DNA of 64,000 bases from Siminovitchia terrae (GTDB lineage: Bacteria > Bacillota > Bacilli > Bacillales > Bacillaceae_C): the NCBI RefSeq assembly GCF_003605405.2, contig NZ_QYTW02000004.1, positions 124,001 to 188,000 of the forward strand. The letters run 5' to 3'. Below, piece after piece: positions 27,697 to 53,519 of this stretch (the stretch's first letter is position 1; each line of letters begins with the position of its first letter). The translations under genes were made by a program, and so were the position numbers. The notes under the pieces are model-generated. The model did no database searches and had not been told where the DNA came from. It saw only the letters and a list, made by a program, of their open reading frames with translations.

Positions 27697-27713
27697 GAGT
27701 CGAAATCAATAAA

Positions 27714-27893
27714 TTGATAGAGGCGCAAACCTTAAAGAGTAGTAATCTGGAGAAGCGTGGGCTTCGAGGAAGGGTTTATGAAAGGGAAGGATTGCCGAAG
27801 TAAAAATAAGCCCCATGATTATTTTTACTGGTTCTGTTATTGAATAAATGCAGAATTGTCAGTATGAACTGGTTCATACTGGAGGGCTATCTC
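27714..27893 (+). ncRNA. Lysine riboswitch (L-box)
   Basis: The conserved L-box core is present: GATAGAGGCGC, AAGAGTAGT, GAAAGGGAAGGATTGCCGAAG, and a closing GGCTATCTCA that pairs with TTGATAG to form P1. Lysine binding would favour the downstream terminator and switch off lysC. Confidence 0.95.
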
Positions 27894-27931
27894 ATGTTGT
27901 GGCTTTTTCACTTTTATTTACTGTGACTCAC

Positions 27932-33412: not shown

Positions 33413-33450
33413 AACAGCAGCTGTCCACATTGAGGCAGCTGCTGTTTTTT
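33413..33450 (+). terminator. Terminator of sdhCAB
   Basis: AACAGCAGCTG / CAGCTGCTG stem followed by six T. Repeat copy 3 begins inside the T run. Confidence 0.9.
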
Positions 33451-35434: not shown

Positions 35435-35524
35435 TCATTAATAGGAGAGTTTCTTAGAAAAATGGAAGCTTTATGGAAAGCTCCATTAGACTTTGAATGC
35501 GTCACCAGAAAATAAAGAATTTTA

Positions 35525-35569
35525 GTTCATCCCTGTCTTCCAATGAGGACAGGGATGAGCTTGTTTTTT
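35525..35569 (+). terminator. Terminator after the YiaA/B gene
   Basis: TCATCCCTGTC / GGACAGGGATGA with a short loop, then a T run. Confidence 0.8.
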
Positions 35570-35818
35570 AATTAATCGTAAATGTGTGAAGCTAATGTCA
35601 AATGGGTAATTGAATACAATATGATGGTCATCCCCACGCTTAAAGCTGGCGAAGGAGAACGGATTCATTCATAAACAGCTGCTCACGAAAAGATAAAAGA
35701 AGTATTTGAGCTATTAGTACAGGATAAAACTACAAAGAGGAAATCACGAACGAACTGTTCATAAGCGAGAAGCAGTTCGCAATCATATATACAACGAGAT
35801 ACATACCCTTTGCAAAGA
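35570..35818 (+). pseudogene. gerE: gerE pseudogene, upstream region and 5' two-thirds
   Basis: Base-level similarity to the intact gerE region at 40045-40500. The shared leader TCCCCACG...GCTGGCGAAGG is followed by the coding part (TATTTGAGCTATTAGT, GGATAAAACTACAAAG, CGAACTGTTCATAAGCGAGAAG, GTTCGCAATCATATAT). About 27 bases containing the ribosome binding site and start have been lost between GAAGG direct repeats, and several frameshifts and stops follow. Homology stops near 35800 after CAACG. It cannot make GerE. Confidence 0.85.
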
Positions 35819-35824
35819 GAAATC

Positions 35825-35862
35825 AGTCAGGAGCTGTGAGGAGCTCCTGACTGTTGTTTTTA
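35825..35862 (+). terminator. Hairpin terminator after the gerE pseudogene
   Basis: AGTCAGGAGCT / AGCTCCTGACT with a short loop and a T-rich tail. Confidence 0.8.
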
Positions 35863-36189
35863 CTAAAGTAATAGATCGTGCAACAGAATGACATGTTAGA
35901 CAGCTTCAATATTCTTGTCTATTGCATATCCATATATCACTTTTATAGATTTGCCCGTATAGTTTTTATTTTCTTCTCTAATTCTTTGATTCTGCTAAAG
36001 TTCTTGAAGAATTTTGGTATATATTTTTCTTGAAATTACACCTATCGGAGACAGGAAAGCTTTCGATGCTCAAATTTATGCCGGGCAACTTCAACCCGCC
36101 TGTAGTTATCCGGTTATAGAAATACACATTCAAAAAAAGGTTGAATAGGCTAGAAATACTACAAATGATATTTAGATTGGAGTGAAGGA
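35863..36189 (+). other. Intergenic upstream of tgl
   Basis: About 330 AT-rich bases with no recognised gene. It presumably contains the tgl promoter; I could not assign a sigma-K site with confidence. Confidence 0.4.
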
Positions 36190-37038
36190 TTGTTGATACG
36201 ACTGGCAGGGGTACAATTTCAACAAAGTGGCATGTGGCCATCTGATAGTATTGAAAGTGTAATCATTCAACGAATGCATGAAGATCCAATCGTTTATAGG
36301 TATCAATCCATGGATGAATTATCGTTTGAACTCAAGTTGCGAAAAAACATCATAGTAAGTGCAAGATCCATGAATCAAGGCCATTCAGATTTTGCAATCT
36401 TTGCAAAGTCTCGTTGTAATCCCCAATATTGGCTATTGACAAGTGTCGGCGGATTCCAGTTAAGGTATGGTGTAAAACCATCTGATGCGATTCGAGACAT
36501 TTACAAAAATAGTTCACTATATGCGTTTGAATGTGCTACTGCAATGATGATTATCTATTACCATGCTGTTCTAAATAGTATTGATGAACATTTATTTAAT
36601 CAATTATTCCAAAACCTCTATTTATATAGCTGGCATTCTGATCCTGACCTCGGAATACACAACGTTAAAACGAGTCATTTCTTACCCGGAGATGTCGTCT
36701 ACTTTAATAATCCAGATTTTAATCCAGAAACCCCTTGGTGGAGAGGAGAAAATGCCGTTGTTCTCGATGATGGCACATATTTTGGACATGGAGTGGGAAT
36801 AAGGAACGCTAACCAAATGATCCAAGCTCTAAATAAGACTAGGAGGCCGGGGAGTAATCAATCAGTCTATCTGGAAAATTTAGCCACAAGACCAGCGTTT
36901 CAACATTTGGCAAAATATTCGATGATGCCACGCGGTTATAATCGGCATATCATAATCTTCCATAACGAAACTTCAATTTCATATGATCGATACCTATACT
37001 ATTTAACTTCATTCAGCAGAAGTCTCCCACTTCTATAA
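36190..37038 (+). CDS. tgl: Protein-glutamine gamma-glutamyltransferase (spore transglutaminase)
   Basis: 282-residue Tgl-like enzyme that cross-links spore coat proteins such as GerQ. Catalytic Cys115 lies in [16 protein letters not shown], with Glu187 in WWRGENAV and His200 in YFGHGVGI, matching the Bacillus Tgl active site. [14 protein letters not shown] and [16 protein letters not shown] are family blocks. TTG at 36190 follows GGAGTGAAGG. The last 12 codons ([12 protein letters not shown]) are read from repeat copy 5, so the native C-terminal end has been replaced. B. subtilis keeps tgl elsewhere on the chromosome. Confidence 0.87.
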
Positions 37039-37196
37039 GTGGTGAGATGAATGCCTATTGGTATTCCATTCAGTGGGGGTTCAAACTCCGTCTGAATAAA
37101 GCTAAAGCCCCCGGCGGATGCAACAGATTTTCAGAGGAAATTTATCGAGCGGAGCTCGATAAAATCTGGGCGCAAATACGCCAAGGCGCATTTGAT
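37003..37196 (+). repeat. 194-bp structured repeat, copy 5
   Basis: Full-length copy overlapping the 3' end of tgl. It has AAACTCCGTCTGAAT in the second hairpin and GCTAAAGCCCCCGG after it. Confidence 0.95.
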
Positions 37197-37435
37197 ATAA
37201 GGTTTATAATCAGATGAACAATATAAACTTTATCCCCATGAAAATGCTCAAATCAGACGACAAATCCCAATGTGGCTTTAAGATTAAGCGGACGGCAGCA
37301 GCCAGTTATTTTTCCTTTGTAGGAGCTTTCCGGTTTGGATGGGTCTTTTTTTTTGCGATTACCCACTATGATGGGAGGAACTGATTGATGAACAATAGTT
37401 GTAAAGAATCAGCATATTTACAGATTACTGACCCA

Positions 37436-37755
37436 GTTCAACATTTCCAGTAAAGCGCCTTTATATCCCATATTCCACACATCGGTAACACTGATCAAGG
37501 CTATGTAGATTTGGTTGTAAATGGTATTCTTGTTTTTTCCATACAGCTTTTTCAAGATTTACTTACTTGAAAAACAGTGCAATCGGCTTTCGGGTAGAGG
37601 TCGCTGATTTCCTGTGCGTTAATTTTTGCATCGCTGCACACAATGGAAATGTTGTTTCTCCTCACTGTCCACGATTTCTATCAAACGGAGAGGATGTTTC
37701 ATACGGCCGATTTTGACGACGACATCCCGGGTGATTGGAGATGACAAATCAACAG
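37436..37755 (-). pseudogene. IS4-family transposase remnant
   Basis: On the minus strand, pieces in different frames read VDLSSPITRDVVVKIGRMKHPLRLIEIVDSE, then NISIVCSDAKINAQEISDLY, then LYGKNKNTIYNQIYIALISVTDVWNMGYKGALLEML, the C-terminal part of an IS4-type DDE transposase. The YREK-motif region between the second and third pieces is lost, the N-terminus is absent and at least two frameshifts are present. No terminal inverted repeats were found. It is a dead relic showing past IS activity. Confidence 0.75.
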
Positions 37756-37782
37756 GTAATTCTTAAATGATATGTACACTGT

Positions 37783-38736
37783 TTAGGAATTTACACTAGA
37801 ATGTTCACCTATTATTAATTTAAACTCTTCCTCGTTAAGGATTTTTAAGTCTTTCCCTTTTTCAATAAATTCATAGGCTTTACGTTCCTTGGAACTCATC
37901 CCACTTTCGCCAACAACCTTGTTATCTTGTTTACCAACGACAAGATAATCAGTCGTTCCACTTACCCCACTTTTAATTTTTCCACCAAGGTTAACAACTG
38001 TTTGCATCGCATCTCTTCGATCAAAAGCCTTAAGCTCTCCAGTAAAAACGATATTTTTATTGTATAACGGATGATTGGCGTCAAAGCTTTCGGTGGTTGC
38101 AGTAATATCCGTAACTTTTATCTTTTTAAAATTACCTTTCCCTTGCCGAAAGGTGGAATTAGCCTTTAATTCTGTAAAACTTCTTACAGGGATGGAGGGA
38201 AAAGTACTCAAATATGTATGAATTGATCTTCTTCTTTTTGTTTCAATGGATTTAATTACAAGCTCTGCACATGCCCTAGCATCGGAAAGAGCGTTATGGT
38301 GACCATTTAATGTTATTCCGAACCTTTTAGTTCTCTCTTTTAAGGAATTACCGATTCCTTCTCCTCTGCAAGCTCTAGTACTAATAGGGATACTACATAT
38401 ATAGTTGAATTCTGGCAACTCAAAGGAATATGTGGTCAGGCAATTTTTGAGTACACTCATATCGAATTGAGCATTATGTGCAATCACGTAATTTTCCTTG
38501 TTGAAATAATATGAAATTTCGTTCCAAACCTTATCAAATTTAGGGGCATCTTTAATATCTACCAAATTAATACCATGCACTTTGGAAAAGTCCGGATCCA
38601 TTACTAAAGTGGGAGGTTGAATTAAAAAGTACTTTTCGTCAATAATCTTCTTCTCCTGAACAAATACGATCCCTAATGAGCATGCACTATCCAGCTTATT
38701 GTTTGCGATCTCAAAATCAATAGCTATAAAATCCAT
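37783..38736 (-). CDS. DnaQ-like 3'-5' exonuclease fused to a BRCT domain
   Basis: 317-residue protein. Residues 1-165 form a DEDDh exonuclease: DFIAIDFE (motif I), HNAQFDMSVL (motif II) and HHNALSDARACAE (motif III His and Asp). Residues about 222-310 form a BRCT domain of the ligase/DinG type (NKNIVFTGELKAFDRRDAMQTVVNLGGKIKSGVSGTTDYLVVG). The middle is a basic linker. Such fusions occur in Firmicutes and on mobile DNA; a role in DNA repair or end processing is inferred. It is monocistronic on the minus strand in an otherwise decayed region. Confidence 0.88.
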   Translation of the reverse strand: MDFIAIDFEIANNKLDSACSLGIVFVQEKKIIDEKYFLIQPPTLVMDPDFSKVHGINLVDIKDAPKFDKVWNEISYYFNKENYVIAHNAQFDMSVLKNCLTTYSFELPEFNYICSIPISTRACRGEGIGNSLKERTKRFGITLNGHHNALSDARACAELVIKSIETKRRRSIHTYLSTFPSIPVRSFTELKANSTFRQGKGNFKKIKVTDITATTESFDANHPLYNKNIVFTGELKAFDRRDAMQTVVNLGGKIKSGVSGTTDYLVVGKQDNKVVGESGMSSKERKAYEFIEKGKDLKILNEEEFKLIIGEHSSVNS

Positions 38737-38817
38737 TTTTTCATCATCCTCCTATTTTTCTAGTGAAATTTACCTAGCGATTATATACAAATAAACACGA
38801 CCTTTTTTCGATCGTGC

Positions 38818-39093
38818 TCAACCCTCTGTATGTTCTCTTTTTGGCTTGAAAATTTCTAATTCGTTTTTCGATGTTTTTTCATAAGTGAATTCAATTTCAC
38901 CTTTAATATCTGTGACTGTGTCCTTTATAGAAACGATGTCACCATGCAGCTTATGGACATTAAAAGAAAGGTTTTCTAATTTTGCATCTGATTCTTGCTG
39001 ACGATCACGTAAGGCCAATGCCATTTCTTTTACCTCGTCTAACGCTTCTAGTTTTTATAGAATTAAGTCTAGCTTATTTTCCAAGGGAATCAT
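38818..39093 (-). pseudogene. Coiled-coil protein gene interrupted by a stop codon
   Basis: The minus strand from ATG at 39093 (after AGGGAAAG) reads MIPLENKLDLIL, then an in-frame TAA, then KLEALDEVKEMALALRDRQQESDAKLENLSFNVHKLHGDIVSIKDTVTDIKGEIEFTYEKTSKNELEIFK. The heptad pattern suggests an amphipathic coiled coil. The intact part could still be translated from an internal ATG at 39024 (68 residues). Function unknown. Confidence 0.6.
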
Positions 39094-39099
39094 CTTTCC

Positions 39100-39245
39100 C
39101 TGTAGTAATTGCAACGCTTTTGGTTAATCATCCAATTCATCAAATCCATCACCATATTCCTCGTTATCCTCATGTTATACAACTTTATCAGCTCTTTAAC
39201 CTTTTTCTCCGGATTTGACGCCAAATCATGGAACACCGCAGGGGG
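39100..39245 (-). pseudogene. Possible fragment of a helical protein
   Basis: A minus-strand frame reads VFHDLASNPEKKVKELIKLYNMRITRNMVMDLMNWMINQKRC, coding-like but lacking a start, and its upstream side meets repeat copy 6. I do not recognise a family. Confidence 0.3.
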
Positions 39246-39250
39246 GTTCC

Positions 39251-39444
39251 TTAACTTCATTCAGCAGAAGTCTCCCACTTTTATAAGTGGTGAGATGAAT
39301 GCCTATTGGTATTCCATTCAGTGGGGGTTCAAACTCCGGCTGAATAAAGCTAAAGCCTTCGGCGGATGCAACAGATTTTCAGAGGAAATTTATCAAGCGG
39401 AGCTCGATAAAATCTGGGCGCAAATACGCCAAGGCGCATTTGAT
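39251..39444 (+). repeat. 194-bp structured repeat, copy 6
   Basis: Full-length copy with ACTTTTATAAGT in the first hairpin, AAACTCC in the second and TATCAAGCGGAGCTCGATA in the third. It forms a direct-repeat pair with copy 7, 343 bases away. Confidence 0.95.
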
Positions 39445-39508
39445 TTTTTCAAAAGCTTTCCTCTGAAGAAAAAATAACTTCTTGCCCAGCCCACATTCAC
39501 TTTATAAT

Positions 39509-39720
39509 TTATTTGATTATTATCAGTTCTTCCGAGTAAATAGTTTTTGACATTTCAAAAAGACTCGTTATTTTATTTACTGTATCAATTGGCGGCATTT
39601 TAGTGCCATTCTCGTATGCTGTATATGTTGTCCGCGCTACACTTGATTTTTCAGCTACGTAGCCCTAAGACACTTTCTCTGGGCTACTTTAACCGACGCG
39701 AAAAAACTGCCACCAGGCCT
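39509..39720 (-). pseudogene. XRE-family HTH regulator fragment
   Basis: The minus strand reads GYVAEKSSVARTTYTAYENGTKMPPIDTVNKITSLFEMSKTIYSEELIIIK and a stop, the second half of a Cro/C1-type helix-turn-helix with its C-terminus. The N-terminal half is broken by a stop and a frame change near 39665. It sits between repeat copies 6 and 7. Confidence 0.65.
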
Positions 39721-39787
39721 TATTTTATATACTCTATTATGACTGTTTCTATTAGTAACTTCAATTGATATTCTTTTTTGTTAGACT

Positions 39788-39981
39788 TTAACTTCATTCA
39801 GCAGAAGTCTCCCACTTCTGTAAGTGGTGAGATGAATGCTTATTGGTATTCTATTCAGTGGGGGTTCAAACCCCGGCTGAATAAAGTTAAAGCCTTTGGC
39901 GGATGCCACAGATTTTCAGAGGAAATTTATCGAGCGGAGCTCGATAAAATCTGGGCGCAAATACGCCAAGGCGCATTTGAT
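39788..39981 (+). repeat. 194-bp structured repeat, copy 7
   Basis: Full-length copy close to the family consensus. It follows TTAGACTT and is followed by TACGTCACCA. A related unoccupied sequence, TTAGACTTTGAATGCGTCAC, exists at 35484-35503 before the decayed gerE copy. Confidence 0.95.
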
Positions 39982-40344
39982 ATACGTCACCAAAAATAAT
40001 TAAAAAACTTTATTTTATCTCGGGTAATCCAATGAGGATAAAGATGAGCGTGTTTGATCGCAAATGCGTAAAACTAATGTCAAATGGGGCTTTGGATACA
40101 TATGATGGAATGAAGGACATTTCGTGCTCCACCTTGTTTTTGAAGGCTTTTCCTATAGATAAAAACCATGGGAAGTTTGATGGAACAGGCATCAGCATGA
40201 AAAATGCAGTGAATCATTGCCTATTTATGTTTTTCTTGCCATTCCCATGTCACTCCCATTATTGGATTCACATATGATGGTGATGACAAAGTTAATACCC
40301 ATCCCCACGGTTGAAGCTGGCGAAGGCAAGGAGGGTTACAATAG

Positions 40345-40569
40345 TTGAAGGAGAACGAATTCACTCATAAACCGCTGCTCACGAAAAGAGAAAAAGAAGT
40401 ATTTGAGCTATTAGTTCAGGATAAAACTACAAAGGAAATCGCGAACGAACTGTTCATAAGCGAGAAGACAGTTCGCAATCATATATCCAACGCCATGCAA
40501 AAGCTTGGAGTTAAGGGGCGTTCTCAAGCTGTAGTTGAACTTTTACGCATGGGAGAACTAAAGCTATAG
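40345..40569 (+). CDS. gerE: Spore germination/late mother-cell regulator GerE
   Basis: 74-residue LuxR-type HTH protein, the last transcription factor of the mother-cell cascade. It adjusts sigma-K genes, including coat genes. The sequence LLTKREKEVFELLVQDKTTKEIANELFISEKTVRNHISNAMQKLGVKGRSQAVVELLRMGEL is almost identical to B. subtilis GerE. TTG at 40345 follows AAGGAGG. Parts of this gene and its flanks recur at 35.6 kb and 46.05 kb as dead copies; this is the only intact one. Confidence 0.96.
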   Translation: MKENEFTHKPLLTKREKEVFELLVQDKTTKEIANELFISEKTVRNHISNAMQKLGVKGRSQAVVELLRMGELKL

Positions 40570-40572
40570 CTG

Positions 40573-40606
40573 AAAAACCGGCTGTCCGTATGGAGGCCGG
40601 TTTTGT
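40573..40606 (+). terminator. Terminator of gerE
   Basis: AAACCGGC / GCCGGTTT with a loop, then T-rich. The same hairpin is duplicated at 46137-46172. Confidence 0.8.
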
Positions 40607-40731
40607 TGTGGAGTAAGCTTACATTAATTTAAGAAATATGGTCAACTTGAGAAGTGTCCGTTCGATCGTCTCTGTGCTATATCTAGATTCGTTTATAATT
40701 AGTCTCAACTATTAAGGATATTTTCTTTAAT

Positions 40732-41472
40732 TCAGTTTTCGAAATTATGCACCTTAAAACAGAGGCTCGTACGATTATTAACCTCAAACTTGTCGTAAAG
40801 GCTCTGCACATGTTTCTTTACAGTATTCACGCTAATAAATAACATGTCGGCAATTTGTTTATTTGAGAATCCCTTCTGTACATAGCGTAACACTTCTCTC
40901 TCTCTTGGTGTCAAGGAATTTTCAAAGAAAAAATTTCCTGTTTTTTTCAATAACAAGTGCTCATGGAATCTTTGTGCTAAATATCTTGATATGATTTCAA
41001 GACACATGACCTTATTTTCATTAATTTTCTTTTTGTTTCTTGAAGAAATATCTACTAACCCAACAACTTGGCTGTCCTTTACTAAAAATATTGCCGTGTT
41101 GTTGTAAATTCCATATTTTTTCATAAAACTATTGAAATACTCATTTTTTTCATATTCTATTTTTGGAAGGTCGAGAAGCCCAATTACGCGACGCTTAGGG
41201 ATAATGTGCTTTAGTTTGTGAGGAAGTACTGGATCTGCTTCCAAATAATTGTCTAAATAATCTTTAGTGATGTCTTTATCAATATTGATAGTAACTGGGT
41301 CAAAGAGGTTATTTTGCTCGTCGCACAGCCAAAAGTTCATTTTATGAAATCCGAACAACTTTTCAAAAGCAAGCAGGACCTCTTTACGAAAATTATTATC
41401 TTCTACTTTTATATCATCCATAAAAGAAAGTATTTTTTGATAACTTTTTTCATTTAAAGAAAATTGACTCAT
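40732..41472 (-). CDS. LuxR-family regulator with a GAF-like sensor domain
   Basis: 246-residue regulator. The C-terminal 65 residues are a LuxR HTH (SLTPREREVLRYVQKGFSNKQIADMLFISVNTVKKHVQSLYDKF). The N-terminal 160 residues look like a GAF/autoinducer-type sensor (FLVKDSQVVGLVDISSR). No phosphoacceptor receiver domain is seen. GGAGGTTACGTC precedes ATG. It is divergent from the amine-oxidase genes and may control them; a palindrome lies over its promoter. Confidence 0.85.
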   Translation of the reverse strand: MSQFSLNEKSYQKILSFMDDIKVEDNNFRKEVLLAFEKLFGFHKMNFWLCDEQNNLFDPVTINIDKDITKDYLDNYLEADPVLPHKLKHIIPKRRVIGLLDLPKIEYEKNEYFNSFMKKYGIYNNTAIFLVKDSQVVGLVDISSRNKKKINENKVMCLEIISRYLAQRFHEHLLLKKTGNFFFENSLTPREREVLRYVQKGFSNKQIADMLFISVNTVKKHVQSLYDKFEVNNRTSLCFKVHNFEN

Positions 41473-41487
41473 GACGTAACCTCCTGT

Positions 41488-41502
41488 TTTACATAATGTA
41501 AA
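41488..41502. promoter_or_regulatory. Perfect palindrome upstream of the LuxR gene
   Basis: TTTACATAATGTAAA is a 15-base perfect palindrome overlapping the likely -10 of the minus-strand gene, with a second half-type TTACATTAT about 20 bases away. It is a candidate binding site for the LuxR protein itself. Confidence 0.45.
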
Positions 41503-41649
41503 GGCTTTCTCAGGTCAATATATTACATTATTTTTCTATTTAGTCAAATAGTCCATAAATATGGTCTGTTTGGGTAATACAATTTTTGCTATGTGTTTTA
41601 GATAATAAATTTATAGAAGTTAATAATCTGTCATAAAGGGGCAGAGCAA

Positions 41650-42066
41650 ATGGCGGCTAAACACTATGATGTCATTTTCATTGGACCAGGTTTTAGAGGA
41701 ATTACTGCAGTCTGGAAGCTGCACTTTATTTGGAGCGGCGGGCATGATAGTCTAGGGCGGCAGAGCCAGCTTGACATATATACCTGGCTTCCTGGCTGGG
41801 AAATCATGCCCGCAGAGGCCCCATTTCAAGTTGCTGGAGGTCATTCTTCGGATTTTTCCTGTATTATGCAGGGGAAATTTCGCCCAATATGCCCCTTGAA
41901 ATGGGAAAAGCCATTACGAGAAGGAGGTTTTTGCAATGGCAAGTGTACACGTCCTGTATGGAACATAAGTCATGGAAGAAGCACTATCAATGGTGCCGAA
42001 ATCATTAACGCGGATTCTGTCATTGATGCATTGATAAGTTTCAAGAAAACACTTCAATTAAATTAA
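41650..42066 (+). pseudogene. Probable relic of an FAD-dependent oxidoreductase
   Basis: A 138-codon frame begins MAAKHYDVIFIGPGFRGITA, a weak copy of the FAD dinucleotide fold seen in the next gene (YDAIIIGAGFAGLTA). After that it shows no family pattern, is rich in unusual Trp/His/Gly, and is far shorter than any amine oxidase. The ending INADSVIDALISFKKTL may be from a second gene. It is most likely decayed. Confidence 0.4.
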
Positions 42067-42093
42067 AATATATACAATAGGAGGATGACAGGT

Positions 42094-43431
42094 ATGGGAA
42101 AAAGTGTTACAGAGGTTTATGATGCCATTATTATTGGAGCGGGATTTGCGGGACTTACGGCTGCCCGTGAATTGGAAATGCTTGGACGCAGTGTTCTTAT
42201 CCTAGAGGCACGGGAGCGCTTGGGTGGCAGGACCTGGATGGATAGAAGGCTTGGCTGTGATCTCGAATTGGGAGGTACGTATGTACATTGGTACCAGCCG
42301 CATTTATGGAGTGAACTCACACGTTATAATCTGGACATATTCGAAGCGGAACCTGCTAAGAAGGCTTACTGGATAACGGATAGAAAGGTTAAATCCGGAA
42401 CAATGGAAGAGCTCCGTTCTATTCTAAATGAGAGCTATGAACGAATGATGAAAGAAGTAACTGCATTTTATCCTTTTCCGTTTGAGATGCAAAAGAATAT
42501 TTCTAAGGAATTTGACAGCATATCAATCTCTGAGTTTATTGAAAAATTTGATTTAACAAAGGAACAACAGGATTTGATCAGCAGTTCAATGGGGATTAAT
42601 TACAGTGGTCCTCCGGAAGAAGGCGCGGCCACCCAGATGTTCCGTTGGTGGGCTTTTTCACAGGGGAACCGGGCTATTTTTACCGACACTGCCGGGCGAT
42701 TCAAAATCAAAGGGGGGACAAGGGCTCTCGTAGAGGCGATTGCATCAGATGTAGAAGCGGAAATAAAATATTCTTCCGTTGTTTCTTCCGTGGAAAACAA
42801 CGATGGGAATATGGGTGTTCAAACGAAAGACGGGGAAATATTTTATTCGAAAACGGCGATTGTAACAGTACCGTTGAGCACATTGGATAAAATTGATTTT
42901 AAACCCGCGCTTTCAGAATTGAAGCAGGCTTTTATAAGCGAAAAGCAAGTTTCTAAAGGAGTAAAAGTATGGGCGAGGATCAAAGGGGTGCTTGAACCAT
43001 TCGTAACATATGCTCCTGTTGGCTATCCACTGCAGTCCATTTACTATGAATCTCAAGTGGAGGGAGATACAATTGTTGTCGGATTCGGATCGGATGCAAA
43101 CAGGTTGAATTTGAAGGACCGAGACGCGGTGGAGCAAGCTATTAGGCTTTGGCTGCCTGAGGTCGAAGTGATGGAAGTGACCGGGCATGACTGGACGAAT
43201 GATGAATTTTCAAAGGAAACATGGCCCATGTTAAAACCGAACCAATTGACTTCTTATGTAGAAGAAATGCGGCGTCCGGAAAATGGATTATATTTGGCAG
43301 GGACTACTTATGCAAATGGCTGGGCAGGATTTATCGACGGGGCCATTGAAAATGCCATTAATACCGGGAGAAAGGTTCATCATTATTTGAAAAAGGAGGA
43401 CAGCTGTTTAAAACATAAAGATATTTTTTGA
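42094..43431 (+). CDS. Flavin monoamine oxidase family protein
   Basis: 445-residue FAD oxidase. The Rossmann motif YDAIIIGAGFAGLTAARELEMLGRSVLILEARERLGGRTW opens the protein, and the C-terminal FAD motif YLAGTTYANGWAGFIDGAIENAINTGRKV closes it. GLYLAGTTYA and MFRWWAFSQGN are typical of the amine oxidase family. It should oxidise an amine to an aldehyde, ammonia and peroxide; the substrate is unknown. ATG at 42094 is preferred because GGAGG is 9 bases upstream, while the earlier ATG overlaps that site. Confidence 0.88.
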   Translation: MGKSVTEVYDAIIIGAGFAGLTAARELEMLGRSVLILEARERLGGRTWMDRRLGCDLELGGTYVHWYQPHLWSELTRYNLDIFEAEPAKKAYWITDRKVKSGTMEELRSILNESYERMMKEVTAFYPFPFEMQKNISKEFDSISISEFIEKFDLTKEQQDLISSSMGINYSGPPEEGAATQMFRWWAFSQGNRAIFTDTAGRFKIKGGTRALVEAIASDVEAEIKYSSVVSSVENNDGNMGVQTKDGEIFYSKTAIVTVPLSTLDKIDFKPALSELKQAFISEKQVSKGVKVWARIKGVLEPFVTYAPVGYPLQSIYYESQVEGDTIVVGFGSDANRLNLKDRDAVEQAIRLWLPEVEVMEVTGHDWTNDEFSKETWPMLKPNQLTSYVEEMRRPENGLYLAGTTYANGWAGFIDGAIENAINTGRKVHHYLKKEDSCLKHKDIF

Positions 43432-44041
43432 TATGAGTAAAATGCTTATGGGCGAATAAAATGGGATTATGCCTTTTTATACCAGTAAATAGATAACGAT
43501 AGCAGTAGGAGGTTACTCATTCAAAATGATGTCCGCGGATTTATACGGAGTGGAGGGCATGATAGCGTTAATTGGTGAGTCAACTTACACAAAGTGGGCT
43601 TACTGGCAGGAAGAGGGGGTGGCGGGTTTTATTGCTGCCCGTGATTTTTCCAACTAAGGTTAGCGATATTTTTAATGATCATTTTTAGGACATTGTCATA
43701 CAATGTAGGAAGGTCCAATGTTGTTGTCCTAAAAGCACTATTGTTTTTTCTCGAATTACTGATTGGACACATTATAAAATTTTTAGTAGAAAGTACTTCA
43801 CATTTCGTCTAATGTAATCTTTGGTATATATTGTTAAAATGATGATTAAATATTTGAATCAATAGAATCGAGAGTCTTAATTAGCTAAATATTATTGAAA
43901 ATTAAGATTAAAAGAAATAAGAAGATCAAAAATATAAAAAGGAAATTTGATATGAAAGCTACATTTAAGCCTAAAAAAGGGTGGTTTGACATTTTTTTGA
44001 TAACGCTTACTTTTTTTATTAGACAGCAACTATTCATTTAT
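43432..44041 (+). other. Long intergenic stretch with one 43-codon frame
   Basis: Mostly AT-rich and unassigned. A frame at 43526-43657 (MMSADLYGVEGMIALIGESTYTKWAYWQEEGVAGFIAARDFSN) has AGGAGG about 12 bases upstream and could be a small gene or the start of a lost one. I do not recognise it. Confidence 0.35.
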
Positions 44042-44236
44042 TTAACTTCATTCAGCAGAAGTCTCCCATATCTGTAAGTGGTGAGATGAATGCATATTAG
44101 TATTCCATTCAGTGGGGGTTCAAACTCCGGCTGAATAAAATTAAAGCCTCCGGCGGATGCCACAGATTTTCAGAGGAAATTTATCGAGCTTAAGCTCGAT
44201 AAAATCTGGGCCCAAATACGCCAAGGCGCATTTGAT
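44042..44236 (+). repeat. 194-bp structured repeat, copy 8 (195 bp)
   Basis: Full-length copy with an in-frame TAG in the former reading frame and one extra base in the loop of the GAGC...GCTC hairpin (GAGCTTAAGCTC). This shows that the hairpin, not a peptide, is maintained. Confidence 0.95.
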
Positions 44237-44396
44237 TAAAGAAATGGGGGGATTATTAGTAAATGCCGTCATTTTTGTATGTGCATCATTGATGACTCAG
44301 CCGGTATCTAAAGAAACAATTGAATTTTTCCCTGACATGGTTGAGGGACTCTACGAAGATCAAACACCAGTCTCATTACATGTTGGAATAAAATAA
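44237..44396 (+). pseudogene. C-terminal fragment of a sodium:solute symporter
   Basis: Immediately after repeat copy 8 the frame reads MGGLLVNAVIFVCASLMTQPVSKETIEFFPDMVEG and ends at 44396. This matches the last membrane helix and tail of SSS-family symporters. The rest of the transporter is gone, so the repeat marks the breakpoint. It lies just upstream of the amidohydrolase gene, which may once have been its partner. Confidence 0.5.
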
Positions 44397-44419
44397 TAAT
44401 TATACAGGAGGGTCCATCA

Positions 44420-46042
44420 TTGGAAAGTCAATATCTTTTTATCAACGGTGACATCATTACAGTTAACGAAAAGGATCAAGTGGCAGAAGCAGTTGCTGTA
44501 AGAGGAAATAAAATTATCGCAGTCGGATCAAACGAAAGCATTTTAAAATTAAAGGATGATCATAGTGAAATCATAGATTTGAATGGAAAAACTCTTTTAC
44601 CAGGTTTCATTGATTCACATTTACATATTTCTGTTTATGGAACAAATTGTTTATCCATTTCTTGTCAAAGTGAGAAGATAAAATCTATTAAGGAGCTGCT
44701 CCAAGAAATCAAAATGAAAGCAGATCATACGCCAAAAGGCCAGTGGATCAGGGCTTGGGGATACAATGAATCTCTCATTTCGGACAAGCGGTTTCCCACC
44801 AAGGAAGAACTGGATGATATTACGTCAGAACATCCTATCATGGTTTCCAGAATATGTGGACATATTTCAATGGTCAATAGCTATGCCCTTCGGGTGGCAA
44901 ATATAGACAGGAATACCCCAGATCCCCAAGGAGGAATAATTGATAAAACGGCAGCAGGGGAACCTTCGGGATTATTAATTGAAAATGCGCATATGAAGAT
45001 GTTTAATATCTCAGCTTTTTCAGAAGAAGAACTATCCAAAGCACACACAATTGCCTCAGAGCATTTCGCTGAAAAAGGAATTACCTCTATTCATGATGCG
45101 ACGGGCTATGGCCTCGATAATCTTAGGGTATTACAAGCCGACAGTAAAAAAGGGTTAATAAAACAAAGAGTCTACGCTATGGTTGGGGCTCTCAATAATG
45201 CTCAGGATATTGTTAAACATATGGTGAAGGCGGGCATCTTTACTGGCTTAGGAGATGATAAATTCAGAATAGGTCCAGTAAAGCTTTTTCTCGATGGCAG
45301 TAGCAGCGGGCCTACCATTTGGACTCGTGAGGCTTACACTAGTGACCCAAATAATTATGGAGTTCACTATTTTTCCCAGGAAGAAGTAGATGAACTGCTC
45401 ATTCCTGCCCATGAAAAAGGCTGGCAAATCACCTCTCATGCACAAGGGGACGCTGCTATCGAAATGCTTTTAAATACTATTGAAAAAGCACATCAACTTT
45501 ATCCACGGGAAGAAGCAAGGCATCGGATCGAACATGCTGGAGTCGCTGCGCCAGATTTGATTGAACGAATGAGAACATTAAATGTAGTTCCTATACCAAA
45601 TCCTGCTTTTCTCTATGAGTATGGGGATGGTTATGTTAAGAACTATGGTGTTAGAGCCAATGATATGTATCCAATGAATGCTTATCAAAATGCTGATATT
45701 CCAGCGGCGATTTCTTCTGACAGTCCGGTAACAGGCTTCAATCCATTACGCGGCATTTATGTTGCGGTTACTCGAAAATCATCCTCCGGGCAAGTTATTG
45801 GGGATGGCAATAGAGTGTCTTTACTCGAAGCTATTCGTATGTATACTTTAAACGGTGCCTATGCATCCTTTGAGGAAAATATTAAAGGTAGTATTGAACC
45901 TGGTAAACTGGCCGATTTAGTTTTGCTTGATCGTTCCATTATTCAAACGGACATCGATGAACTGTTAGAAGCCGAAGTAGAATGGACAATGATAGACGGA
46001 GAGATGGTTTATACTAATTCCAATATTGGAATCAAGGCCTAA
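44420..46042 (+). CDS. Amidohydrolase (YtcJ-like)
   Basis: 540-residue metal-dependent hydrolase of the amidohydrolase 3 family. Metal ligands appear in the LLPGFIDSHLHISV segment, in WQITSHAQGDAAI and RHRIEHAGVA (His), and in AAISSDSPVTGFNPLRGIY (Asp). A small beta-sandwich at both ends (LFINGDIITVNEKDQ; GKLADLVLLDRSI) completes the fold. TTG at 44420 has AGGAGG upstream. The substrate is not predictable; the context suggests amide or amine catabolism. Confidence 0.87.
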   Translation: MESQYLFINGDIITVNEKDQVAEAVAVRGNKIIAVGSNESILKLKDDHSEIIDLNGKTLLPGFIDSHLHISVYGTNCLSISCQSEKIKSIKELLQEIKMKADHTPKGQWIRAWGYNESLISDKRFPTKEELDDITSEHPIMVSRICGHISMVNSYALRVANIDRNTPDPQGGIIDKTAAGEPSGLLIENAHMKMFNISAFSEEELSKAHTIASEHFAEKGITSIHDATGYGLDNLRVLQADSKKGLIKQRVYAMVGALNNAQDIVKHMVKAGIFTGLGDDKFRIGPVKLFLDGSSSGPTIWTREAYTSDPNNYGVHYFSQEEVDELLIPAHEKGWQITSHAQGDAAIEMLLNTIEKAHQLYPREEARHRIEHAGVAAPDLIERMRTLNVVPIPNPAFLYEYGDGYVKNYGVRANDMYPMNAYQNADIPAAISSDSPVTGFNPLRGIYVAVTRKSSSGQVIGDGNRVSLLEAIRMYTLNGAYASFEENIKGSIEPGKLADLVLLDRSIIQTDIDELLEAEVEWTMIDGEMVYTNSNIGIKA

Positions 46043-46046
46043 AGGT

Positions 46047-46172
46047 TCGTATCACCAATCCCACAAAAGCTTGGAGTTAAGGGGTGTTCTCAAGCTGTCA
46101 TCGAACTTTTACGCATGTGAGAACTAAAGCTATAGCTGAAAAACTGGTTGTCCGTATGGAGGCCGGTTTTTT
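46047..46172 (+). pseudogene. gerE: gerE fragment, 3' part with its terminator
   Basis: Matches the 3' third of gerE and the following hairpin almost base for base: AAAGCTTGGAGTTAAGGGG, TTCTCAAGCTGT, GAACTTTTACGCATG, GAACTAAAGCTATAGCTGAA, TGTCCGTATGGAGGCCGG. A small internal deletion lies at its left end. Together with the 5' fragment at 35.6 kb it accounts for roughly one full second gerE, split by about 10 kb. Confidence 0.85.
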
Positions 46173-46459
46173 TGTTGCAGGTGTATTTGAATTTTACTAA
46201 AACGTACATTGTAAATAACGTCTCCTTTTTGAGGGCGACAACTTTCTCAATACTTGATAAAGCTTGTTGTATTCCTAAAATGAAAGTAGCAATATTCTAA
46301 TCAAAAAATATATTAACAATTGAAACGCACTCCATCTTCCTGAACAACAGACCTCGTTCCCCCTTACTTAGCCAATATACAGTGTTTCTGAAATTTCATA
46401 AAGATTTCAGGAATCCTTTTTAAAATTTATGTTAATTTGGTAACAAAGGGGGACCGATT
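46173..46459 (+). other. Intergenic upstream of the two-component system
   Basis: About 290 bases without a gene. A stretch at 46218-46275 (GTCTCCTTTTTGAGGGCGAC...) resembles one at 51202-51260. It likely holds the response-regulator promoter. Confidence 0.4.
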
Positions 46460-50835: not shown

Positions 50836-51399
50836 TTTGTTTTCTCCCTTCTCATCTGGTTTATAAGTATAAAAAGGGAGTCTGAAAGAAAACTGAAAAT
50901 CAAATAAAAAGTCCTTCAAAAGTTTGTTTACTTTTATGGGTAAAAATAATGAGGAGGGAACTGACATGACAGTGCGTTAATGGTTGAAATGAGGAATAGA
51001 ACCTTATCCGAGCTTAAATGAAGAACTTGAGAAGGGGGCCTCAAAGGGGAGATCCAAATGGCAGATTAAAACCGTTCATACAATTATAAGAAATTCTGCT
51101 TATTTCGAGGTATTTGTTCACAACAAATGTATGAAGGTAAAAATTAGCGGGCGGGAAAACAGAGTCAACACCTATGAGAGAAGTGGAGCGTACAATATGA
51201 AAAATGGCTCCTTTTTGAGGGAGATAAACTTTTCGATACTTGTTAAGGTTTGTTATATTTTTTCTTTTATTAATGTCAGTGTATTGGTGCTGGGATCATC
51301 CGCCCAGAAACAATTTTTGACACTTCCATAAAAAAAACAGAGCATTCCCCGATGAAAATGTTCTGCTAAAATGTTGCCTGGACACGGGCCAGTACACCG
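50836..51399 (+). other. Intergenic between the stalk gene and the broken agmatinase
   Basis: About 560 bases with only short frames. It contains the stretch at 51202-51260 that resembles 46218-46275, and a hairpin at 51331-51362 whose T run reads on the minus strand. Confidence 0.4.
51331..51362 (-). terminator. Orphan minus-strand terminator
   Basis: On the minus strand CAGAACATT pairs with AATGCTCTG (one G-T) and is followed by eight T. No minus-strand gene lies upstream of it, so it may be left from a lost gene. Confidence 0.5.
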
Positions 51400-52032
51400 C
51401 TTCTTGAGAAAAATGTCATCCCTGTCATTATGGGTGGGGACCATTCCATTACATTGGGTAACCTTAGGGCTTTCCATAAAAAATTCGGTAAAATTGCTCT
51501 TGTCCATTTTGATTCCCATGGAGTTACATGGGATCAGTATTACGGAGAAAAATATATGCACGGAACCCCTTTTAGACGTGCTGCTGAAGAAGGACTACTC
51601 GACATGGATCATTCGATTCAAGTCGGGATGAGAGGGCCGCTTTACGGGCCAGGAGATATCCAAGATGCAAGAGACCTTGGCTTCGAAGTTATTCCGATGA
51701 AGGAAGTGCGCCAAGTTGGTTTTGAAAATGTAATGAAAAGAATCCATGATCGGGTAAAGGACCGTCCGGTATTTGTCACGTATGATATCGATTTTATTGA
51801 TCCAGCGTATGCACCAGGAACCGGAACACCTGAAGTTGGAGGTCCAAGTAGTTATGAAGCTTTGGAATTTGTACGCGCCTTAGACGGACTCAATGTTGTT
51901 GATTTTGACTTGGTAGAGGTACTGCCGGCTTATGATGCCAATGAAATCACGGCGGTGCTCGCATCATCTGTCATTTATGAAATGATCACATTAATTGCGT
52001 TAAAGAAAAGACGACAGCAGGAGAATAGATGA
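51400..52032 (+). pseudogene. Agmatinase/arginase-family gene, 5' truncated
   Basis: The frame begins in the middle of the fold (LEKNVIPVIMGGDHSITLG). About 110 N-terminal residues and a start site are missing. GGDHS, HGTPFRRAAEEG and YDIDFIDPAYAPGTGTPEVGG are present, but the manganese motif that should read HFDAHxD is HFDSHGV, so one metal ligand is lost. The longest frame from ATG at 51430 gives 200 residues. It belonged to a ureohydrolase that makes putrescine or a similar amine. Confidence 0.75.
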
Positions 52033-52046
52033 AAGGGGAAAACGAC

Positions 52047-53519
52047 TTGATCAACTTGAAAATGTATATAGATGGTGAATGGAGAGATTCAAGCAATCAA
52101 GTAGTACGTGATATTATAATCCTGCAAATGGAGAAGTCATTGCCTTGGCTGCGGAAGGAACTCTGGAGGATGCGGAAGTAGCCATTCAGGCTGCGAGAGC
52201 GGCATTTGACAGCGGGGTTTGGGCAGATCTGCCAGCCGCAAAGCGAGCAAAATATTTATATGACATAGCTGATAAGCTGGAAGAACAATTTGATGAATTT
52301 GTTGATTTAGAGGTTATGAATAACGGAAAAACAAGAGCTGAAGCCGAATTTGATATGCAAGATGCGGCAACCTGTTTCCGTTACTACGCAGGATTGATTA
52401 CGAAACCTGGCGGCGAGACATACGATGTACCGGATCCTGATATTCAATCGATGGTTGTTCGTGAGCCTGTTGGTGTCGCAGGACTTATCGTGCCATGGAA
52501 TTTTCCTCTACTGATGGGTGTCTGGAAAGTAGCTCCCGCTCTTGCTGCAGGGAATACAATTATATTCAAGCCTGCCGAAATCACCCCTATTACAGCAGTG
52601 AAATTGTTTGAAATCATGGAACAGGTTGGAATTCCGGCGGGAGTTGCCAACCTAGTTTTAGGTGAGGGAGAAGTAATCGGGCAGACAATAGCAGAAAGCC
52701 ATGATGTGGATGCCATCTCCTTCACAGGGAGTACACTGACCGGAAGGAAAATCATGCGAGCTGCTTCTGAAAACTTAAAAAAGACTTCGCTTGAATTAGG
52801 CGGAAAATCGCCCAATATCATTTTTGATGATGTTGATTTGGAGAGTGCGGTTGATCAAGCTTTGTTTGGCATTTTTTGGGGGCTGGTCAAATATGCGCAG
52901 CAGGAAGCCGCATCCTTGTTCAGGAAGAAATATATGACGCCTTTGTTGAGCGATTTGTTGAACGTGCCAATAAGATAAAAGTTGGTCCGGGAAATGAAAG
53001 GGCGTGGAAATGGGCGCCATTGCCAGCGAGAAACAAATGAAGCAAATTTTGAACTATATCAAGATTGGTCAGGAAGAGGGAGCTATTCTCAAAACTGGCG
53101 GGAACCGGATCTTGGATAGGGGATTGGATAAAGGCTTTTTCATTGAACCGACTGTTTTCACAGATGTAAATCAGGAGATGCAGATCGTGCAGGAGGAAAT
53201 CTTTGGTCCTGTCGTCACCATTCAAAAGTTTAAAGATGAAAAAGAAGCTGTTGAATTGGCTAATGATGTTGATTTCGGATTGGCAGGCGGTATTTTTACG
53301 AATGATGGGGCCCGTGCTTTGCGCGTCATCAAAAAACTACGAGCAGGCATCACTTGGATCAATACTTATCATCCGGCATTTGTTGAAGCGCCGTGGGGTG
53401 GCTATAAACAGAGCGGTATAGGGCGCAGTCTCGGAACATATGGATTGGAAGACTTCCAGGAGATTAAGCAGATCAATAGCAATATGAATGTAGGGCTGAC
53501 AGGCTGGTTCAAAAATTGA
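52047..53519 (+). pseudogene. Aldehyde dehydrogenase gene with three frameshifts
   Basis: A full-length NAD-dependent aldehyde dehydrogenase (about 490 residues) can be reassembled from three frames. The shifts lie near 52113 (before NPANGEVI), near 52873 (before GQICAAGSR, which holds the catalytic Cys) and near 53002 (before [11 protein letters not shown]). IVPWNFPLLM, FTGSTLTGRKI, LELGGKSPNIIFDD and PWGGYKQSGIGRSLG are intact. In life it probably oxidised an aldehyde from an amine oxidase. Sequencing error is an alternative cause for single shifts. Confidence 0.85.

Follow-up and report, generated by a model that had tools for sequence, protein, structure and literature searches.

A split gerE gene with the features of a serine-recombinase insertion, and an intact copy between its halves, in Siminovitchia terrae

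Mobile elements are known to interrupt sporulation genes in a handful of live cases. According to passages of PMC4191935 and PMC10747680, these include skin (in sigK), SPbeta (spsM), vfbin (spoVFB) and yin (yabG), which bear recombinases and whose excision restores the interrupted gene. The closest described system is gin (GirC/GirX) of Bacillus cereus ATCC10987, which uses serine recombinases and in which GirX is the directionality factor; sections of PMC5595907 state that GerE controls late mother-cell genes, that gin recombines in CATCTCAAA, the codons Ile47-Ser48-Asn49 of gerE, cleavage being predicted at the final AA, and that gin excises in sporulation, restoring gerE. The locus considered here lies in a window of 64,000 nucleotides (the whole stretch analysed), part of contig C34 (NZ_QYTW02000004.1) in the 5.3 Mb genome of Siminovitchia terrae, in which an intact gerE stands between two broken halves of the same gene. 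Very probably, the spore-maturation gene gerE of an ancestor was cut by an element with a serine recombinase and the halves are the fossil of that event; the intact copy between them was probably regained.

Coordinates are those of the window, and features lie on the forward strand unless otherwise stated. The intact gerE (40345–40569; PF00196) has 74 codons and a TTG start; it is preceded by its leader and promoter region (39976–40344, from alignment and self-comparison) and followed by a terminator-like hairpin (40570–40615) seen in the sequence. The encoded protein is 100% identical in two relatives, G003 and G004, in which the hairpin is also conserved, and the leader from about 40211 onward aligns between the window and G001–G004; this conservation suggests that the inner copy is the working one. 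The only other gerE matches in the genome at an E-value of 0.001 or better are 35651–35796, 46064–46175 and an upstream bit at 35629–35655. The first of these corresponds to bases 3–148 of gerE, with 93% identity to the intact gene; the decayed 5' half proper (codons 1–48) occupies 35651–35792, agrees with the intact gene at 137 of 146 aligned bases and, judged by eye, lacks the start codon and has small insertions and deletions. The leader before it (35492–35650) is that of the intact gene minus a middle part, since self-comparison pairs 35492–35627 with 39976–40108 (74% over 141 columns) and 35629–35655 with 40300–40326 (93% over 27 columns). The decayed 3' half, identified by sequence match, runs from codon 49 through the terminator (46057–46175); 46064–46175 is 93% identical to the intact gene, a gapped match extends over 46047–46175, and insertions, deletions and an in-frame stop can be seen by eye. 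Both halves are probably functionless fossils. An assembly error is unlikely as their source, because they differ from the intact gene and G003 shows the same arrangement.

The two halves are complementary at a single point. The first A of the Asn49 codon (base 145 of gerE) lies at 35793 in the 5' piece and at 46057 in the 3' piece, and both breaks fall at the AA of this codon. A sequence-only reading of the window had described one intact gerE between complementary halves split in the same short region, and had suggested a search for attachment-like repeats at the breaks; the arrangement, the shared region and the positions it gave for the fragments are borne out, and such sites are present, clear at 35793 and half preserved at 46057.

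The left attachment site (attL, 35793–35819), consisting of the AA crossover of Asn49 and a recombinase-binding arm, AACGAGATACATACCCTTTGCAAAGAG, was found with a matrix built from ten arms of ten other genomes, all associated with the first of the two recombinase groups described below; the window contributed to no matrix. Of all sites on the two strands of the window it scores highest (26.1, with 15.8 for the next), and its score was reached in none of 200 both-strand shuffles (highest, 21.5). By eye, 23 of its 27 bases are equal to those of Caldibacillus phage CBP1. The arm to the left of the other crossover (attR, 46033–46056) was ranked at its fixed position with a matrix of eleven arms. 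The inner 16 bases alone are arm-like, the outer part being occupied by the end of an amidohydrolase gene. Over both strands, 46057 ranks 121 of 127950 with the full 26 bases, 1 of 127966 with the inner 18, 5 of 127970 with the inner 16 without the AA and 18 of 127974 with the inner 14; the top window site for this matrix is the attL arm on the opposite strand, not 46057, as expected of an inverted repeat. For the same four lengths, the arm at the 3'-half locus of G003 (one strand, about 16300 positions) ranks 82, 1, 3 and 18, and that of a displaced 3' piece in G002 (G002:C95) ranks 1, 1, 1 and 2. The assignment of attR is thus based on the break point and the fixed-position match, and the two halves look like the attL and attR of a serine-recombinase insertion.

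Split gerE genes occur well beyond this window. The survey combined a DNA search of 120 relatives with a search at the protein level of 397 genomes from the order, the two sets overlapping; the former found gerE pieces ending or starting at bases 143–146 in several genera. From the protein table, 23 genomes with a best score like that of half a protein (E = 1e-19 to 1e-27) were picked by eye. Eight of them belong to genus g92; the two of these eight that were examined have a diverged match to residues 10/11–74, so are not split. All 15 others have the gene in two pieces, and gerE is split at codon 49 in at least 15 of the 397 genomes (about 1 in 26), a count that excludes fossils; G007, found among the relatives outside this sample, raises the set to 16. 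The halves are about 4 to 52 kb apart on one contig in 14 of the 16 and on two contigs in G172 and G348, and no full-length gerE match was found elsewhere in any of the 16. When these genomes are aligned on codon 49 (the rows of G181 and G295 being read by eye, and G295 being excluded from both arm matrices for its displaced alignment), both sides leave gerE within about 10 bases of the AA. In 12 of the 16, no more than 150 bases separate the 3' half from a large serine recombinase gene (G007, G020, G042, G079, G087, G113, G123, G172, G265, G292, G326 and G348); it is 2.8 kb away in G295, G413 has only a distant recombinase (22–26%) near the 3' half, and none was found in the stretches read for G181 and G208. 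G089 contributed its recombinase and attR arm but was not counted as a case (6% contamination, gerE places on two contigs). A third small gerE piece (residues 36–59, E = 2e-4) was observed in G413 (C1:420075–420146), 7.7 kb beyond the halves. In G097, the 3' end of gerE, from base 127, occurs in two further tandem copies after the intact gene (C35; L161 8509–9025); these were rejected as cases of the same kind, since they start elsewhere in the gene.

Comparison using four of the recombinases as queries separates them into two groups, with identities of 45–88% within group 1, 50–55% to the recombinase of G113 within group 2 and 27–35% between groups. The arms also differ, as read by eye. Those of group 1 form an inverted repeat, with a right end of approximately TTTGCAA..TATGCAT..CA/AA (the slash marking the crossover) and a left end of AATG..ATACATACC.TTTGCAAA, whereas those of group 2 resemble CAAAACACAT..CG/AA, with AATGTAAT.TAGTTTGAAA or something near it in four of five genomes; the left arm of G123 does not fit this pattern. 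Group 2 includes an element in G113 with three recombinases, as in gin. Viral sequences also carry these arms. Contig L213, in which the recombinase gene is internal, has beside that gene an undivided group-1 attP, a complete dyad with a score of 42.4 against 0.6 for the next on that strand. In the record of Caldibacillus phage CBP1 (L221, MF595878.1), positions 1041–1280 contain a 5' half of host gerE that bears the annotation 'transcriptional regulator' and is contiguous with a group-1 arm. In the IMG/VR contigs L211 and L218, an attR-like arm and the 3' end of gerE come after a recombinase gene (by eye), as if integrated in gerE.

The window itself retains a trace of a group-1 recombinase. 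A remnant of 60 codons (51014–51193), corresponding to residues of approximately 216–279, matches recombinases of this gerE-targeting lineage with 42–45% identity (E = 4e-10 to 5e-10) and at the DNA level with 64% identity (E = 8e-12); a weaker remnant (E = 0.004) is present at the corresponding place in G003. A search across the genus with 52 N-terminal recombinase residues gave no match, a result of little weight. The single PF07508 match of the genome is on contig C23, and its PF00239 matches are on C21 and C23. Excision restoring gerE in the sporulating mother cell is unlikely in this genome, because the locus retains no recombinase gene. Directly after the remnant, a stretch following the gerE 3' half (46204–46273) is repeated at 51190–51259 (77% over 70 bases, E = 3e-10), and this doubled right end is not explained by a single simple insertion. 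Beside the remnant (51430–53519), an arginase-like frame of 200 codons, apparently without a start, and an aldehyde-dehydrogenase-like gene in two frames (52145–52978 and 53004–53519) were named by eye.

Comparison of the locus in relatives, proposed in the sequence-only reading, did not show the fragments to be independent, unrelated insertions. The order on a contig of G003 is 5' piece, tgl, dnaQ, intact gerE and amidohydrolase gene, the remainder of the last and the 3' piece being on another contig. The 5' piece of G003 has its arm, and the intact gene and 3' piece follow it as in the window; we would therefore place the insertion before the split between its species and that of the window. 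In G002, the displaced 3' piece on C95 agrees with that genome's own gerE at 107 of 112 bases and with others at 93 of 112 at most, which points to a separate insertion. The piece in G001 was not counted as another, since its own gene (83 of 97 bases) and that of G005 (81 of 96) are about equally close. In G022, a displaced 3' piece aligns with the intact gerE over 198 columns (96.5%). The aligned part starts at the crossover, includes the terminator and extends into a neighbouring gene, of which a complete form stands next to the displaced piece and a truncated one next to the intact gerE. Where an intact gene occurs together with a displaced 3' piece, delivery of a replacement gene end by an integrase was considered; regain of the gene fits better, as the duplication in G022 enters the host's neighbouring gene. 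The suggestion that the insertion had removed the usual ysmB–racE neighbours had to be abandoned: they are absent beside gerE also in G005 (L021), which has one gerE match in its genome, and in the 20 kb examined of L025 and L030 (Lederbergia), and their loss is, on this comparison, separate from the insertion.

The following course of events would account for these observations. A mobile element with a large serine recombinase would have inserted into the ancestral gerE by strand exchange at the AA of Asn49, a position shown by the break points, the attL arm and, less strongly, the attR arm, leaving the 5' half with attL on the left and attR with the 3' half on the right. Once the element had lost its recombinase, excision in sporulation, presumed for the past by analogy with gin, would no longer have been possible. 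A working gerE would then have been regained, most probably from an allele of that lineage that had stayed uninterrupted, through recombination that was homologous at one end and illegitimate at the other, so that a segment with leader and gerE lodged in the dead element, after which the halves would have decayed. The earlier suggestion of an ancestral gerE interrupted by about 10 kb carrying a working copy stands in the main; the copy more probably came after the element than with it, and both ends may stem from a single element or from more than one.

Regain from an uninterrupted allele, as opposed to carriage by the element, seems to us the rather more plausible source of the intact gene, because the host leader is duplicated together with it; recombination between alleles would leave traces such as those in G022, and the same is taken to apply to the window. 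Arrival of gerE and its leader as cargo, inserted along with the element, is unlikely in our judgement. Such an origin would agree with the place of the intact gene between two attachment sites and with the cargo-like look of tgl and the exonuclease gene, neither of which was found in G001, G002, G004 or G005, but the leader of the intact copy is that of the interrupted one, and the intact copy belongs to the host's own lineage; in addition, the duplicated DNA of G022 takes in part of the host's neighbouring gene, and the absence of a full-length gerE match from all 16 split genomes means that these elements do not normally include an inner copy. The duplicated leader and flank, and the tandem 3' repeats of G097, which start elsewhere in the gene, might also suggest that a segment with gerE was simply duplicated and then decayed, without any recombinase; this is highly improbable, given that both breaks are at the AA of Asn49 and that, beyond gerE, the 5' half bears a recombinase arm. 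Had a tandem duplication preceded the insertion, the intact gene would lie outside the attL–attR interval, and its position between the two sites therefore excludes a simple duplication of this kind.

Another possibility, less likely than not but to which we give somewhat greater credence than to cargo, is that two or more elements hit the same site in turn and were spliced, the 5' and 3' halves deriving from different insertions. The recombinase remnant and second right flank at 51 kb speak for it, as does the displaced piece of G002, which is closest to that genome's own gene and implies more than one hit in the genus; against it, the window and G003 each have one 5' and one 3' half that are complementary at the crossover. 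Several observations also weigh against the reconstruction of one insertion followed by regain. The remnant is 5 kb outside attR, whereas the recombinase gene is just inside in 12 of the 16 split genomes, and this position and the doubled right flank imply that more than one element or a later rearrangement was involved. The attR arm is poor across its full length; its inner 18 bases are not significant in a blind scan, 93 of 200 shuffles holding an equal or better site, and this cut was chosen after the outer bases had been seen to belong to the amidohydrolase gene. The bases to the left of the displaced pieces in G002:C67 and G022 do not score as arms (rank 6574 in G022, whose piece has no recognisable arm), and these two pieces therefore share only the break point. 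G004 has a 5' piece beside the leader of its intact gene and no 3' piece, which we read as a later deletion, and no recombinase remnant was found in the stretch examined. Derived bases common to the window and G003 number one in the 5' pieces and two in the 3' pieces, so that a common origin of these pieces rests on position and arm.

Several other genes lie between attL and attR. The gene tgl (36190–37038; PF20085, E = 1e-109), which encodes a spore-coat transglutaminase, is the sole member of its family matched in the genome, lies within the dead gerE element and, among ten genomes searched, was not found in G001, G002, G004, G005, G020 or G018. An exonuclease–BRCT gene (DnaQ-like; 37783–38736, reverse strand; PF00929, PF00533) is present, at E = 1e-20, in three of ten genomes (G000, G003 and G020), always beside gerE, and that of G020 (L153 11624–12589) is outside its element. 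A LuxR-family regulator gene (40732–41472, reverse strand; PF00196), which was not found at the corresponding place in G003, is followed by a flavin amine oxidase gene (42085–43431; PF01593) and by the amidohydrolase gene abutting attR (44420–46042; PF07969); G003 also has an amidohydrolase gene beside its 3' half. A dispersed repeat of about 200 bases, TTTAACTTCATTCAGCAGAAGTCTCCCACTT...GGCGCATTTGAT, occurs at 33448, 34112, 37002, 39250, 39787 and 44041 and, by eye, at about 54747 and 55121. Genome-wide, 40 of 598 first-look candidates were scored, all 40 having 95–100% identity; the repeat has no Rfam match and is possibly a short non-autonomous transposable element. It was rejected as the agent of the gerE rearrangement: one copy ends at 39987, beside the leader, and there is none at that place in G003. 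Rfam models at the gathering threshold gave nothing at the gerE locus; elsewhere in the window, a lysine riboswitch was detected at 27710–27897 (RF00168, 113.6 bits).

Beyond this one locus, we lean slightly towards the view that, throughout the spore-forming Bacillales, the AA of gerE codon 49 serves as a permanent attachment site for recombinases from at least two distant serine-recombinase lineages, whose arms differ, in a cycle of which the window would represent the end stage. Elements would first insert and excise in sporulation and later lose their recombinase; a regained allele would then rescue the host and fossil halves would persist, the whole gene again being a target for the next insertion; the displaced pieces of G002:C67 and G022, with no recognisable arm, count against this proposal. 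Such a fossil would show the outcome when the arrangement of interruption and excision fails, and the arms offer a means of finding more. Two recombinase lineages with about 30% identity have chosen the same two bases of gerE and, given this and at least 15 split genomes of 397, the preference of mobile DNA for late sporulation genes could be tested on many insertions rather than one.

Skin, SPbeta, vfbin and yin differ from the window in their genes and sites, and the passages of PMC4191935 and PMC10747680 covered here describe no fossil with a regained copy. PMC5595907 is the only article found, by title or start of abstract in a collection with few subscription papers, that has insertion in gerE as its subject, and the hot spot may already be reported. 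Caldibacillus phage CBP1 (MF595878) resembles the window in having a gerE 5' half with a matching arm, and its recombinase is 63.7% identical to that of G020; it is a whole phage record of 37 kb, whereas no phage protein was found among the ten window proteins scanned. The split-gerE mini-elements of G020 (same family), G042 and G087, with 4–5 kb between the halves, share the recombinase lineage and arms of the window, but their recombinase gene is open and gerE is still split, with no full-length match. The recombinases of the window lineage are 27–31% identical to that beside the gerE 3' half in the gin-like element of G113, a comparison in which G113 stands for gin. An element of the gin type breaks gerE at Ile47-Ser48-Asn49 with an AA crossover, has recombinase-binding arms beside both breaks, contains a functional serine recombinase, has the directionality factor GirX, restores gerE by excision in the sporulating mother cell and leaves no other intact gerE. 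The window has such breaks and arms (attL clear, attR in its inner part at the fixed position only), together with a 60-codon remnant outside attR in place of the recombinase and an intact gerE. As described in PMC5595907, gin shares with the window its target gene, codons, predicted AA cleavage and serine recombinases, and differs in that it still excises to restore gerE, whereas the window holds a remnant of another recombinase lineage, other arms and a whole gene.

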